From assembly GCA_945860085.1 (NCBI GenBank), contig CAMAPJ010000025.1, positions 1 to 33,124 on the forward strand: DNA of 33,124 nt, read 5' to 3'. The translations under genes and the position numbers were made by a program. Source of the stretch: Synechococcus sp. UW140 (GTDB taxonomy: Bacteria; Cyanobacteriota; Cyanobacteriia; PCC-6307; Cyanobiaceae). This document shows positions 28,229 to 32,423 of this stretch, in pieces (the stretch's first letter is position 1; every line of letters begins with the position of its first letter). Under the pieces are notes generated by a model. The model did no database searches. It saw only the letters and a list, made by a program, of their open reading frames with translations, and was not told where the DNA came from.

Positions 28229-29089
28229 TCAATGCGCTGACCATTCTATTGCCATTGCTATTGTCATTATCATTATCATTGTTATTGGCATTGGCATTGG
28301 CATTGCTAGTGTTAGTGAGAGCTGTTTCGCTGCGGGCAGGTTTGCCGTTACGGGCGAGGCGGCAGCCAGATAAGCGCTCAGAAAGAGCAGGCCAGTGATG
28401 CTGCTGCGGGTCGCCGGATTCAGTCCGTTAATTCGCGCTTGGTTGGCCACGAAGCATCCCTGCACCCCCAGCATTGCCAGGGCCGACACCCCATAAATCG
28501 CCCGCCAAACCCAAAGCTAGGCAAGCAAACCACTGACGCTGCGCGACAGCAGGATGCCGCTGAAGCCGCTCAGAACAATTCCGAGCATCCTTCCCCGGCT
28601 GGATGCCGGAGTGAAGGCTGTGAGGAAGGCCGGCAGCAGTGACGGGATCATGGCCACCAGTCCCGGTCCAAACCAGCTGAAGATCAATACAGCAAAATTT
28701 GGTGCCAGCAGCACTCCCCCGCAGGCCAGGGCCCTGGCCAACACGATCCACATTTGGCGCCGCTCAGTGCCATCCCCGAGCGGCAGTAGAAACAGAAAAA
28801 CCAACACCATGCCCAGCTGGCTGGCCATCGGCCCTAGCAGCACCGAGCCCGGAGCCAGCTGGAACGTGGTCTCGACCGCAGGCAATAACGACTGGGCATA
28901 GAAGGGATTCGTCACGCTTATGCCTAGCGCCAGGGCCATCAACCCCAGTGGCGCCAGTCCTGGCGTTGGGGAGCGGAAGCGGGATTGGCGGCTGGCTTGG
29001 TTGGGGGGCGCGCCAAGTGTATAAACCACCGCGCAGGGGCTTGATCGAAGCTGCTCGCTGATGCCGAGCTGGTCGCACCACTGGGCCAA
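28229..29089 (-). pseudogene. MFS transporter, truncated with an internal stop and deletion
   Basis: From about 28985 the frame reads an MFS drug/metabolite-type transporter. TM1 is in GISVTNPFYAQSLLP, loop 2-3 in GDGTERRQMW, TM4-5 in PAFLTAFTPASSRGRMLGIV. An in-frame TAG at 28517-28519 follows. The same frame continues as LWVWRAIYGVSALAMLG (TM6) and jumps directly to the late segment VANQARINGLNPATRSS, so TM7-TM10 are missing. The frame then decays into a hexanucleotide repeat (28243-28306) and ends at 28229 without the last membrane segments. It can no longer be a working transporter. The N-terminal about 35 residues upstream of TM1 look non-native. Confidence 0.75.
28243..28306. repeat. 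Degenerate hexanucleotide tandem array
   Basis: About eleven consecutive 6-nt units vary around ATTGNC/ATTATC, including three adjacent ATTGGC copies and two adjacent ATTATC copies. On the minus strand it encodes a Met-Pro/Met-Ile/Ala-rich tail of the MFS remnant. It looks like replication-slippage expansion in a gene no longer under selection. Confidence 0.75.
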
Positions 29090-29172
29090 GGGGATGCCCC
29101 AGCCGGCTCAGCCACCTCGACCTGCTGCTCAGCCGCCTGCGCCACGAACGGCTGCGGGGTGCACAATTGCAG

Positions 29173-29579
29173 CTATTGGTCGTCGTCGCTTAATTGCTCG
29201 AGGCCCTTGGCACGAGAAATCGTATCCAAGCCTTCCTGCGTTAACAGGCTGGCAAAGGCTTGTACCAGGCTGCTTGCGGGCAGCGCCAGCAGTTCATCAA
29301 ACGAGGGCCAATGGACCCAGTAGCGCTCGCTCACTAGGGCCTCAATTGCGGACTGCTGCCGCAGCCCGCTCCGGGCCATCACCGCAAGGGACTGGCGTAG
29401 CTGTGGTTGAGGACTGCCCTGGCAGTCGGGACCCGATCGGGCTTTTCGATTAGCTCGCGAAGCGCCAGCAGAGTGGCTTCCAGGAAGGGCTGCTGGGCTG
29501 CGCCAAAGGCACTGGCCGGCTACGCCATGGAGCTGCCGGCCCGCAGGGCCTCGACGAAAAGATCGGGAGTGTTAAGCAT
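29173..29579 (-). pseudogene. Frameshifted, possibly COQ4-like protein
   Basis: ATG 29579, preceded by a good Shine-Dalgarno (GAGGAGA), begins MLNTPDLFVEALRAGSS and stops at 29520. The protein continues in a second frame (FGAAQQPFLEATLLALREL, then ARAVLNHSYAS) to a stop at 29379. It continues in a third frame as VMARSGLRQQSAIEAL, SERYWVHWPSFDELLALP, and ends with LVQAFASLLTQEGLD to a stop at 29173. The last part resembles the early region of COQ4-family proteins (a small quinone-synthesis-linked family), but the characteristic HDxxH segment that should follow is absent. Family assignment is tentative; the broken state is clear. Confidence 0.55.
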
Positions 29580-29767: not shown

Positions 29768-30136
29768 CTACGAGTAAGAACTGGCATAGGGCTCCAGGTC
29801 TGCTAGCTCAAGCACTCCATCACGATTGAGGTCAAGGCAGTCGAAGAAACCACCCGCCGCCAGGGCGACAAAGCCCTCAGCCTGATCACGCAGGATGTTA
29901 AAAGCTGAGATGATGGGGGTATGGGATTGCACAAGTTCCAGTTCATCCACCATTGCGTCGTGGTTGAGATCGCGGCGGTCAGTTTCGTGCTGATAGGTGG
30001 CAATCAATAAGTCCAGCATGTTGGCAAAGGGCGTGGTGAGGTTCTGCCAGCGGGCCGCCAAAATCTTGGCCACCGGCCGAAAATCAAATTCCATGCTGAT
30101 CTTGACTTCGCCGATCACGTCGTAGAAAAGAAACAA
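29768..30136 (-). CDS. EF-hand calcium-binding protein
   Basis: The 122-codon frame has two canonical 12-residue EF-hand loops: DLNHDAMVDELE (about residues 57-68) and DLNRDGVLELAD (about 102-113). Each has acidic or Asn residues at positions 1, 3, 5, 9 and 12. It should bind Ca2+ and is predicted soluble. The frame opens at TTG 30136 right after an in-frame stop. ATG at about 30094 (MEFDFRPVAKILAARW) or an intermediate GTG are more natural starts. Base composition is more AT-rich than the core genes. Its partner and role are unknown. Confidence 0.65.
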   Translation of the reverse strand: MFLFYDVIGEVKISMEFDFRPVAKILAARWQNLTTPFANMLDLLIATYQHETDRRDLNHDAMVDELELVQSHTPIISAFNILRDQAEGFVALAAGGFFDCLDLNRDGVLELADLEPYASSYS

Positions 30137-30657
30137 CTGGCCTTAGCAGCGCTGGAGCTCAGGATCCATTTGATCGCTTCAGTTAATCCAAGCTAGGTGC
30201 AGGTTAGAAAGAAAGCAGGGGAACCGCCGCTGGGTGCGGTGATCCTGGCCTATGAGCTTGCGGCAAGGAGCGCTGTCCAGTCGCGATAGCTACTTCAAGA
30301 CCTGACAAATGCTGGCCTGATCGCGCCGAACCGGACTGGTGAGGCAAAGGTATCGAAATGACTCAGCAGGAGATTGATGTGCGAATTTGCCCTAGAAAAG
30401 ACTTAGGGTAAATTAGCTTGCAAAATCCTAGCCGCCCAGCCTGTCGAGGATCTTAAAGCACCAACACATTAAAGAGCTGAATCGCGTCAACGATTGCGCT
30501 GCAATGGTTTTGCATCGAATTGTGACAGTTCCTAACTGATGAAGTCTGACTGCCGCTGGGCTCCTAGCTTGTAATTGGCCCAAAGCGACCTGTCCGCCAG
30601 CTGGTCCCGTGGCTCAGTGACCGACCGATCGACGAAGTGTCAGTCAACCTACCACCA
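30137..30657. other. 521-nt intergenic region upstream of the PepSY-like gene
   Basis: I see no coding sequence, tRNA or terminator here. It is AT-richer than the core and lies between divergently transcribed genes, so it must hold their promoters. No clear -35/-10 pair stands out. Confidence 0.4.
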
Positions 30658-30933
30658 ATGTCCATGAAACTGATAAGTAAGCTACTACTGCTGGGTGGCT
30701 TGGCCGCCCTAACCGTGGCCCCTATGGCCGCCCGAGCTGACTACTCCAAATGCACGAAGTCAATTCGGGCTCAGGGATATTTTATTACCGATATTGATAC
30801 GGATTGGGGGCGTCCCCTTGACCGCTTTGATGTTGTCAAAAACGGTCGGGAATTTGATTTGTACGTCGACAAGAACACCTGCAAGGTTGTGCAAAGTGTA
30901 GCTGATGACCGCTACAATCATTATAACGACTGA
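30658..30933 (+). CDS. Secreted PepSY-like small protein
   Basis: The 91-residue product has a signal peptide: basic MSMKLISK, hydrophobic LLLLGGLAALTVAP, then a likely cleavage after ARA. The mature part is a single PepSY-type domain, with YFITDIDTDWGRPLDRFDV, NGREFDLYVD and TCKVV. The two Cys residues could form a disulfide in the periplasm. ATG 30658 is chosen over GTG 30637 because it places the signal peptide correctly; ATG 30664 is also possible. PepSY proteins often act as inhibitors or chaperone-like extracytoplasmic modules. The partner is unknown. Confidence 0.7.
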   Translation: MSMKLISKLLLLGGLAALTVAPMAARADYSKCTKSIRAQGYFITDIDTDWGRPLDRFDVVKNGREFDLYVDKNTCKVVQSVADDRYNHYND

Positions 30934-31307
30934 TCAGGTAATCCGGCTTTTTTGCTGAATTTCCTGAGATAGTTGCCAGCCAAGAGCCAATTGTCGACTG
31001 GATCGAACATTGGTTGGCGATCATTGAGCTCAACTCTACTAAGAGACTTATTTGCTGATCTTCGTCAGCTAGTTTCGATGGGGCATTTGTTATGGCAAAT
31101 TTGATGCCATAACAAATGCTCGTTTTTTGTAATCTCTTTCCCGATGTATTGATTTGGATATGCCTTCGCAGCTAGCAGACCATTTCCATTTTCAGCTTTT
31201 AGCGTCTAGTCAACGTAAATATTTTAATGCGCCATTATGCCATCATATAGTACTGCCTCAACCATTGCCCACCAAGATCTGATTTTAAGGTTCCTTGATG
31301 TCCTTAA
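30934..31307. other. 374-nt gap holding structured 3' sequence
   Basis: No reading frame is credible here. A hairpin GCTGA-tcttcg-TCAGC lies near 31054-31070 and a strong terminator at 31081-31128. Everything up to 31128 may be a long 3' UTR of the PepSY-like gene or a separate small RNA. The rest, up to 31307, presumably holds the channel-gene promoter. Confidence 0.4.
31081..31128 (+). terminator. Long intrinsic terminator
   Basis: GCATTTGTTATGGC (31083-31096) pairs perfectly with GCCATAACAAATGC (31106-31119) around a 9-nt loop. Two outer pairs extend it (one G-T). TTTTTT (31123-31128) follows. It is oriented for plus-strand transcription and lies about 150 nt after the PepSY stop. Confidence 0.92.
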
Positions 31308-32423
31308 ATGGAGCTTATACAGTTGGCGCCGCTGATGGAGTTTTCTGGTCTTAAAGCATTGCGGCTAGCCGGCTCAAGGCAACTCCGCATGAGAGCCCTG
31401 GCTCTAACAGCTGTCCTGCTCTTGATTGGTTCGATTTCCCTTGCCGCCTGGCCCTTGGGGTCGTCAGTTCAGGCTCAGACAGTAGCGACGTTAATGAGTA
31501 CAAAGCCCCTGAAAACCCTTGGCGATAAGGAGGTCTTGATCGGGGCCTACATCAGGAATATTCAGGCCATCAATCCAGAAACAAACAGTTTCCTAGCCGA
31601 TGTTTATATCTGGTTGCGCTGGAATGATCGCACAATTCAACCATATAAGTCCATGGAGTTTGTCAACCTTTTCGAGGCCTGGCAGTTGATGTCCTGGAAG
31701 ATCCAGGAAGAGCCAATCCTGCAGCCAGACGGATCCCTCTACTATTTGACCCACTACCAGGGAGCCTTCAATAGCATTCTTTCTTTGAAGAATTATCCAT
31801 TTGGTTCTCAGATATTGGCCATTGAAATTGAGGATCTTCAGCGAGAGACCAGCGATCTCCACTTTGTTGTCGATCCTTCAACCCTGGCAATTTCGCCAAG
31901 CATATCAATCCCTGGTTATAATTTTGGTAGCCCAACAATTTCGGCTAAAAACTATGCTTACCCGACCTCTTTTGGCATGCTAAATAATACTATTGACGAC
32001 GTCTACTCCAAGGTTACTATTGCAATCCCAGTTGTTCACCCAGTATTGGTCAATATCTTTAAGTACATCCTTCCCATCGTCCTTGTGATGATTGCGGCTG
32101 GACTTATCTTCGAAATCCCTCCAGCTGAGTTCTCTAGTCGTATCAGTCTGTCAATTACGGCATTGCTGACACTAGTGGCAATGCAGTGGACATCGGCTGA
32201 GGGTTTGCCAACAAATTCCTATTTGACTATGCTAGATTCGCTCTATCTGTTTAGCTTAATTTTCATCCTTGCTTCCTTGGTTCAAGGTATCAAGAATTCT
32301 TGGGTGGCGCGAGATAAAGGTGAGGATCTTGCGATTAAGCTAGATGAACGGGCTTTGAAAATCTATTGGAGCGCCTACGCGATAATCTTCACGGTAATGA
32401 TTTTTGGCTACATCTTGACATGA
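31308..32423 (+). CDS. Pentameric ligand-gated ion channel (GLIC/Cys-loop superfamily)
   Basis: The 371-residue protein has the full channel layout. A signal peptide spans about residues 28-57. The extracellular ligand-binding domain (about 60-240) includes FLADVYIWLRW and the Cys-loop equivalent NYPFGSQILAIEIED (without cysteines). M1 (about 246-268) holds the conserved proline (FKYILPIVLV); M2 is at 275-297, M3 at 303-325, and M4 at 352-370. By hand alignment to GLIC, M2 reads SSRISLSITALLTLVAMQW, with Arg at 0', Leu at 9' and no acidic residue at -2', so the cation filter of GLIC is absent. The start may be 31308, 31335 or 31389. The gene is visibly AT-richer than the core. Ligand is unknown. 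Confidence 0.9.
   Translation: MELIQLAPLMEFSGLKALRLAGSRQLRMRALALTAVLLLIGSISLAAWPLGSSVQAQTVATLMSTKPLKTLGDKEVLIGAYIRNIQAINPETNSFLADVYIWLRWNDRTIQPYKSMEFVNLFEAWQLMSWKIQEEPILQPDGSLYYLTHYQGAFNSILSLKNYPFGSQILAIEIEDLQRETSDLHFVVDPSTLAISPSISIPGYNFGSPTISAKNYAYPTSFGMLNNTIDDVYSKVTIAIPVVHPVLVNIFKYILPIVLVMIAAGLIFEIPPAEFSSRISLSITALLTLVAMQWTSAEGLPTNSYLTMLDSLYLFSLIFILASLVQGIKNSWVARDKGEDLAIKLDERALKIYWSAYAIIFTVMIFGYILT

Follow-up and report, generated by a model that had tools for sequence, protein, structure and literature searches.

A divergent predicted pentameric ligand-gated ion channel subunit in a picocyanobacterium lacks both partners of a conserved coupling salt bridge

Pentameric ligand-gated ion channels (pLGICs) make up the main class of fast neurotransmitter receptors, and the gene described here belongs to a bacterial cousin of these nerve receptors. 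No cellular role is known for microbial pLGICs (PMC4795631), and that source was the only open-licence paper found to name both “pLGIC” and “Synechococcus.” Here, we ask whether a gene near the end of a 33,124-nucleotide stretch of Synechococcus sp. UW140 DNA (contig CAMAPJ010000025.1; hereafter, the window) encodes such a channel, and how its product might bind a ligand, open, and select ions. A sequence-only reading of this DNA had drawn attention to the pore lining. We find that a different feature, overlooked in that reading, is of more interest: the loss of an Asp-Arg salt bridge that is thought to be central to the coupling of ligand binding to the pore.

The open reading frame (ORF) spans 371 codons with no internal stop, and 0 of 2000 base shuffles kept the frame open. 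Its sole Pfam match above the cut-off is Neur_chan_memb (PF02932, 29.8 bits against a cut-off of 28.1), and it scores under both curated cut-offs of the NCBIfam models LGIC_1 and LIC; a profile search recovers homology to known pLGICs at E 3e-27. Its relatives with solved structures are a chimera of GLIC and GlyR (4x5t; PDB phmmer, E 4e-12), ELIC (~3e-11), GABA-A beta3, and GLIC (~5e-7), and a profile built from the two bacterial clades discussed below, YPLD and Cyanobiaceae, matches GLIC and ELIC at E 1e-23 to 1e-27. A single-chain AlphaFold model, based on an alignment of 22 relatives, has the superfamily's beta-sandwich followed by four transmembrane (TM) helices (mean pLDDT 83), and Foldseek returns GLIC as its top match (TMt 0.81, E 3e-24). 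Pro164 in YPFG supplies the Pro-loop proline, which is 100% conserved in pLGICs (PMC4795631); the M1 kink proline (Pro256), the M2-M3 proline (Pro301), the basic 0′ residue (R278), and Leu 9′ (L287) are likewise present. There are no cysteines in the protein, so the two that flank the loop in animal-type Cys-loop receptors are lacking. Since the Pfam and PDB matches, the model, and Foldseek all agree, the product is, as judged from sequence and predicted structure, a real, divergent pLGIC subunit with the complete domain layout that the sequence-only reading had described. Met28 is the more likely translation start because it yields a better, normal signal peptide and agrees with the start sites of relatives; the model predicts an N-terminal helix at residues 24-46 (Table 1).

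Table 1. Features of the predicted channel gene and its upstream region (positions in the window)
Feature	Positions	Strand	Details	Basis
Intrinsic terminator	31081..31121	+	17-pair stem and T-run, between PepSY and channel genes	Sequence
Predicted pLGIC subunit gene	31308..32423	+	371 aa as called; 344 aa if the start is Met28 (31389)	ORF, Pfam, PDB, AlphaFold, Foldseek
Likely signal peptide	31389..31475	+	Residues 28-56, ending SSVQA, followed by Q	Sequence reading; helix in model
Extracellular ligand-binding beta-sandwich	31527..32036	+	Residues 74-243	AlphaFold model, Foldseek
Glu117	31656..31658	+	Column of ELIC Glu77 (amine-coordinating)	Alignment, PMC3119659
Pro-loop YPFG	31794..31805	+	Residues 163-166; Gly replaces the conserved Asp of F/YPxD	Alignment, PMC4795631
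Glu175	31830..31832	+	Column of ELIC Glu131 (amine-coordinating)	Alignment, PMC3119659
His244	32037..32039	+	Replaces the conserved pre-M1 Arg (partner of the Pro-loop Asp)	Alignment, PMC4795631
M1 helix	32043..32114	+	Residues 246-269, kink proline Pro256	AlphaFold model
M2 pore helix	32130..32198	+	Residues 275-297: S-2′ S-1′ R0′ S2′ S4′ T6′ L9′ A13′ Q15′	Alignment, AlphaFold model
M3 helix	32229..32318	+	Residues 308-337	AlphaFold model
M4 helix	32322..32417	+	Residues 339-370	AlphaFold model

Across pLGICs, the Pro-loop Asp and the pre-M1 Arg that form this salt bridge at the coupling interface are conserved in 93% and 94% of sequences, respectively (PMC4795631), so that neither is absolute. 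Both are replaced in the window protein, the Asp by Gly166 and the Arg by His244. In an alignment of 112 loci made up of the YPLD clade, the Cyanobiaceae clade, a GLIC/ELIC group, and an outer group, the two residues are kept together in every YPLD (32/32), GLIC/ELIC (12/12), and outer (15/15) sequence; the Cyanobiaceae clade has the Asp in 0 of 50 sequences and the Arg in 3 of 50. Over all aligned sequences, 61 have both residues, 48 have neither, 3 have only the Arg, and 0 have only the Asp, and the Pro-loop Asp requires two changes on the tree. Because the Cyanobiaceae clade has also lost the Asp, and the residue is not universal in the superfamily, we do not take its absence to exclude the window protein from the pLGICs. 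A member of the Cyanobiaceae clade that we modelled has the pLGIC fold (pLDDT 78; Foldseek to GLIC, TMt ~0.72), so the predicted fold can be kept without the pair. At the level of alignments and models, the joint loss in this other clade shows that the channel family persists without the pair. A further-reaching proposal, which we regard as doubtful, is that picocyanobacterial pLGICs, with the window protein as an independent branch, couple binding to the pore without Asp-Arg and that the window channel, having also lost the acidic selectivity ring, may be anion-permeable or nonselective. A natural channel without either partner would provide a direct test of whether the bridge is needed in gating.

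Where this protein belongs was assessed with a phylogenetic tree of 63 sequences and AU tests of alternative groupings. The window protein forms an end branch of 1.75 adjoining the GLIC/ELIC group (support 93/87), a position that, like the AU rejections of other placements, depends on long branches. Grouping with the YPLD clade (AU p 0.012) and grouping with the Cyanobiaceae clade (AU p 0.022) were each rejected under this long-branch caveat; joining the protein to both clades together was not rejected (AU p 0.096). Its best BLAST matches are YPLD members (27-31% identity, E down to 1e-41). On these comparisons, the protein is best regarded as an isolated lineage that branches at the base of the YPLD and Cyanobiaceae clades or just outside them. 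Searches of named species genomes, phages, and viral contigs yielded no close relatives, and a plasmid search gave distant matches only (22-29%). Records of the YPLD clade come from Cyanobacteriota, Pseudomonadota, Verrucomicrobiota, Bacteroidota, Actinomycetota, and Thermodesulfobacteriota, mostly as metagenome-assembled genomes (MAGs), and many of the records are from lakes. Because the clade spans so many phyla, YPLD-type genes seem to move between them, with the caveat that binning errors may have added to this spread (one record is labelled Bifidobacterium).

The sequence-only reading had placed the gene in an AT-rich accessory segment and suggested that it was acquired. GC content indeed falls from 63% to 42-52% over approximately the last 3 kb of the window, and three genus mates (G002, G004, and G005) lack the segment. 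Downstream of cysK, these genomes have conserved, intact transporter-like genes and no channel gene at that place; the window has MFS-like remnants after cysK and then the DNA of 42-52% GC, which ends in an IS5-family fragment. The remnant between cysK and the AT-rich segment (28428-29382) appears, by eye and with no profile match, to derive in several frames from an MFS-type transporter, and the fragment near the contig end (32716-32982) corresponds to the N terminus of an IS5-family transposase (DUF772). Low GC was set aside as proof of transfer: alone it is weak evidence, because 47 of 51 pLGIC loci of the family are AT-richer than their own flanks. Acquisition of the segment is nevertheless plausible, given an isolated long branch outside the nearby clades, including the family's own, and a segment missing from genus mates.

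Relaxed constraint after such an acquisition might mean that the gene is decaying, with the losses of the Asp, the Arg, and an acidic residue at M2 position -2′, together with the long branch, as the first steps and with no gating by the product. Gly166 (GGT) and His244 (CAC) are each a single transition away from Asp and Arg codons, the searches of named species genomes and viral contigs yielded no close relative that could show purifying selection, and the second pLGIC gene of the genome has already been cut by an IS1595-type element. However, the frame is full-length and free of stops; the Pro-loop proline, the M1 and M2-M3 prolines, L9′, R0′, W102, W105, N120, E175, and the loop C motif are intact; and an entire clade in the Cyanobiaceae lives without Asp-Arg. 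We consider decay unlikely and prefer the reading of the gene as encoding a channel with unusual coupling.

The M2 helix of the protein reads S-2′ S-1′ R0′ I1′ S2′ L3′ S4′ I5′ T6′ A7′ L8′ L9′ T10′ L11′ V12′ A13′ M14′ Q15′ ... E20′. This alignment confirms the pore residues given in the sequence-only reading (Arg 0′, Leu 9′, and no -2′ acid) and the contrast with GLIC, whose E-2′, N0′, and I9′ are all absent. R0′ and L9′ themselves are not unusual: 79% of all pLGICs have a basic residue at 0′ and 75% have Leu at 9′ (PMC4795631), so by alignment these residues are the superfamily norm and GLIC is the exception. The unusual pore feature, in comparison with aligned relatives, is the absent -2′ acid, since this position is Asp or Glu in 31/32 YPLD and 49/50 Cyanobiaceae-clade sequences (80/82 together). 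Ser occupies both -1′ and -2′ in the window protein, in which the acidic residues are E-4′ and E20′; it also occupies 4′, as in ELIC, in place of the proline typical of the YPLD (31/32) and Cyanobiaceae (50/50) clades. The inner pore mouth of glycine and GABA-A receptors is net positive. Because R0′ without an adjacent acid would likewise leave a net positive inner mouth, we expect lower cation selectivity than in GLIC or ELIC, perhaps with passage of anions, and we lean slightly toward weak cation preference or anion permeability, against which E20′ and E-4′ could give some preference for cations. A conventional cation channel of the GLIC or ELIC type, in which the residue changes are functionally neutral, would accord with the best-supported tree position and with E20′ and A13′, which resemble the GLIC/ELIC group; yet the three GLIC residues and ELIC E-1′ are all missing and that position depends on long branches, which makes this explanation distinctly improbable.

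The impression that such channels are sparse and patchy among bacteria was not borne out in this group. A survey of 300 sampled Cyanobiaceae genomes (match at E up to 1e-4) found pLGICs in 111, including 88 of the 197 of good quality, and many carry two to five copies; across the cyanobacterial class, 43 of 146 genera have a pLGIC. Most members are missed by Pfam, which detects 8 of the 22 aligned. This abundant group of aquatic bacteria, which is easier to culture than Gloeobacter, keeps one to five pLGIC genes per genome where they occur. In several family genomes (G108:C47, G157:C3, and G051:C21), two pLGIC genes share a contig at a distance of a few kb up to 18 kb and may encode heteromer partners; those of G108 have 470 and 474 aa. 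One cyanobacterial genus (g81) has, in many of its genomes, ORFs of ~750-790 aa that match only the ligand-binding domain (profile ~54-256; for example, G437:C1:437335, G484:C11:127769, and G550:C1:1565306), which seems to be joined to another part. In the genome studied here, a second pLGIC gene (C70:14682-15266; L002), ~25% identical to the first, keeps both Asp and Arg (YPFD...SR) and is interrupted in M1, after which the start of an IS1595-type transposase gene runs to the contig end. A heteromer in which this second subunit supplies the missing residues, although compatible with its intact Asp and Arg and with the multiple copies in many family genomes, is very improbable in that the gene is broken, it lies on another contig and has little similarity to the first, and known bacterial pLGICs are, to our knowledge, homomeric.

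In ELIC, the amino group of the agonist is held between Glu77 and Glu131, and alanine mutants of both give no response (PMC3119659). Both columns are also Glu in the window protein (Glu117 and Glu175), and those of ELIC Tyr38 and Tyr102 are Tyr. Almost every aligned bacterial pLGIC has Glu in the Glu131 column, so Glu175 is not diagnostic of a particular ligand, and the case for an amine is weak because Leu177 replaces the aromatic Phe133 and the aromatic residues of loop C align poorly with those of ELIC. The motifs E-F-x-N (117-120), W125, and Y-x-T-x-F-G (218-223), which are common to the window protein and its nearest clade, suggest selection on the candidate ligand site. We tentatively predict a small cationic ligand, with somewhat less than even confidence. 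In two Desulfamplus MAGs (L103 1065-8483; L104 5926-11793), a YPLD-clade pLGIC gene lies co-directionally within a biosynthetic gene cluster that contains PKS, SbnA- and SbnB-family (2,3-diaminopropionate) genes, an AMP ligase gene, and, by eye, an amidinotransferase-like ORF. The cluster product could be the ligand of that channel, and the arrangement, in a relative, points the same way. On plasmid pAB510b of Azospirillum sp. B510 (L111 3782-8280), a pLGIC gene is immediately followed by CheW, an MCP gene, and then a mechanosensitive channel gene, an arrangement in which the pLGIC is possibly tied to chemotaxis.

The sequence-only reading had also looked to the neighbouring genes for a link to Ca2+ or a ligand. 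The PepSY gene (30637-30933) exceeds its Pfam threshold, but the EF-hand ORF on the minus strand (29768-30136) falls short, although two of its loops read DLNHDAMVDELE and DLNRDGVLELAD. Because a strong terminator separates them, the PepSY and channel genes are probably separate transcription units, and neither a PepSY nor an EF-hand protein recurs beside the other pLGIC loci examined. An operon with either neighbour was rejected on the basis of the terminator, the opposite strand of the EF-hand ORF, and this nonrecurrence, and the proposed link finds no support.

We think it probable that the gene product forms a homopentameric channel that responds to a small cationic ligand, couples binding to opening in an unusual way, and shows a reduced preference for cations. 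After cleavage of the signal peptide, the subunit would assemble in the plasma membrane, most likely with four copies of itself, with the beta-sandwich on the periplasmic side and the five M2 helices forming a pore shut at the L9′ ring. A small, probably cationic ligand may be held between subunits near Glu117 and Glu175, a partial match to the ELIC site, and its binding would open the pore without the bridge that Gly166 and His244 have replaced. Ions would then meet the positive inner mouth, with E20′ opposing its effect. The gene itself sits within an AT-rich segment that was probably acquired, and its sequence is now remote from that of every known relative.

Compared with known systems, the window protein most resembles GLIC, the proton-gated cation channel of Gloeobacter violaceus, in fold, in its Cys-free Pro-loop, and in its four TM helices, and GLIC is weakly its nearest neighbour in the tree; it differs in sharing only 17% identity in the structural alignment and in having S-2′, R0′, L9′, Gly, and His where GLIC has E-2′, N0′, I9′, Asp122, and Arg192, which sets its pore apart from the GLIC type. 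ELIC, the primary-amine-gated cation channel of Dickeya/Erwinia, shares R0′, L9′, S4′, and the Glu77, Glu131, Tyr38, and Tyr102 columns; unlike ELIC, the window protein has S-1′ instead of E-1′, Leu at Phe133, and no Asp-Arg pair. The YPLD clade (Cyanobium FGCU6, Aquibium, Sphingorhabdus, Verrucomicrobia, Desulfamplus, and others) provides the top BLAST matches and shares the EF-N-EAW and Y-T-FG motifs and Q15′, whereas it keeps the Asp-Arg pair and, with one exception each, the -2′ acid and P4′, and the AU test separates the two. The 50 sequences of the Cyanobiaceae clade come from the same bacterial family and have similarly lost the Asp throughout and the Arg almost throughout, but they retain P4′ and nearly always the -2′ acid, and here too the AU test rejects grouping.
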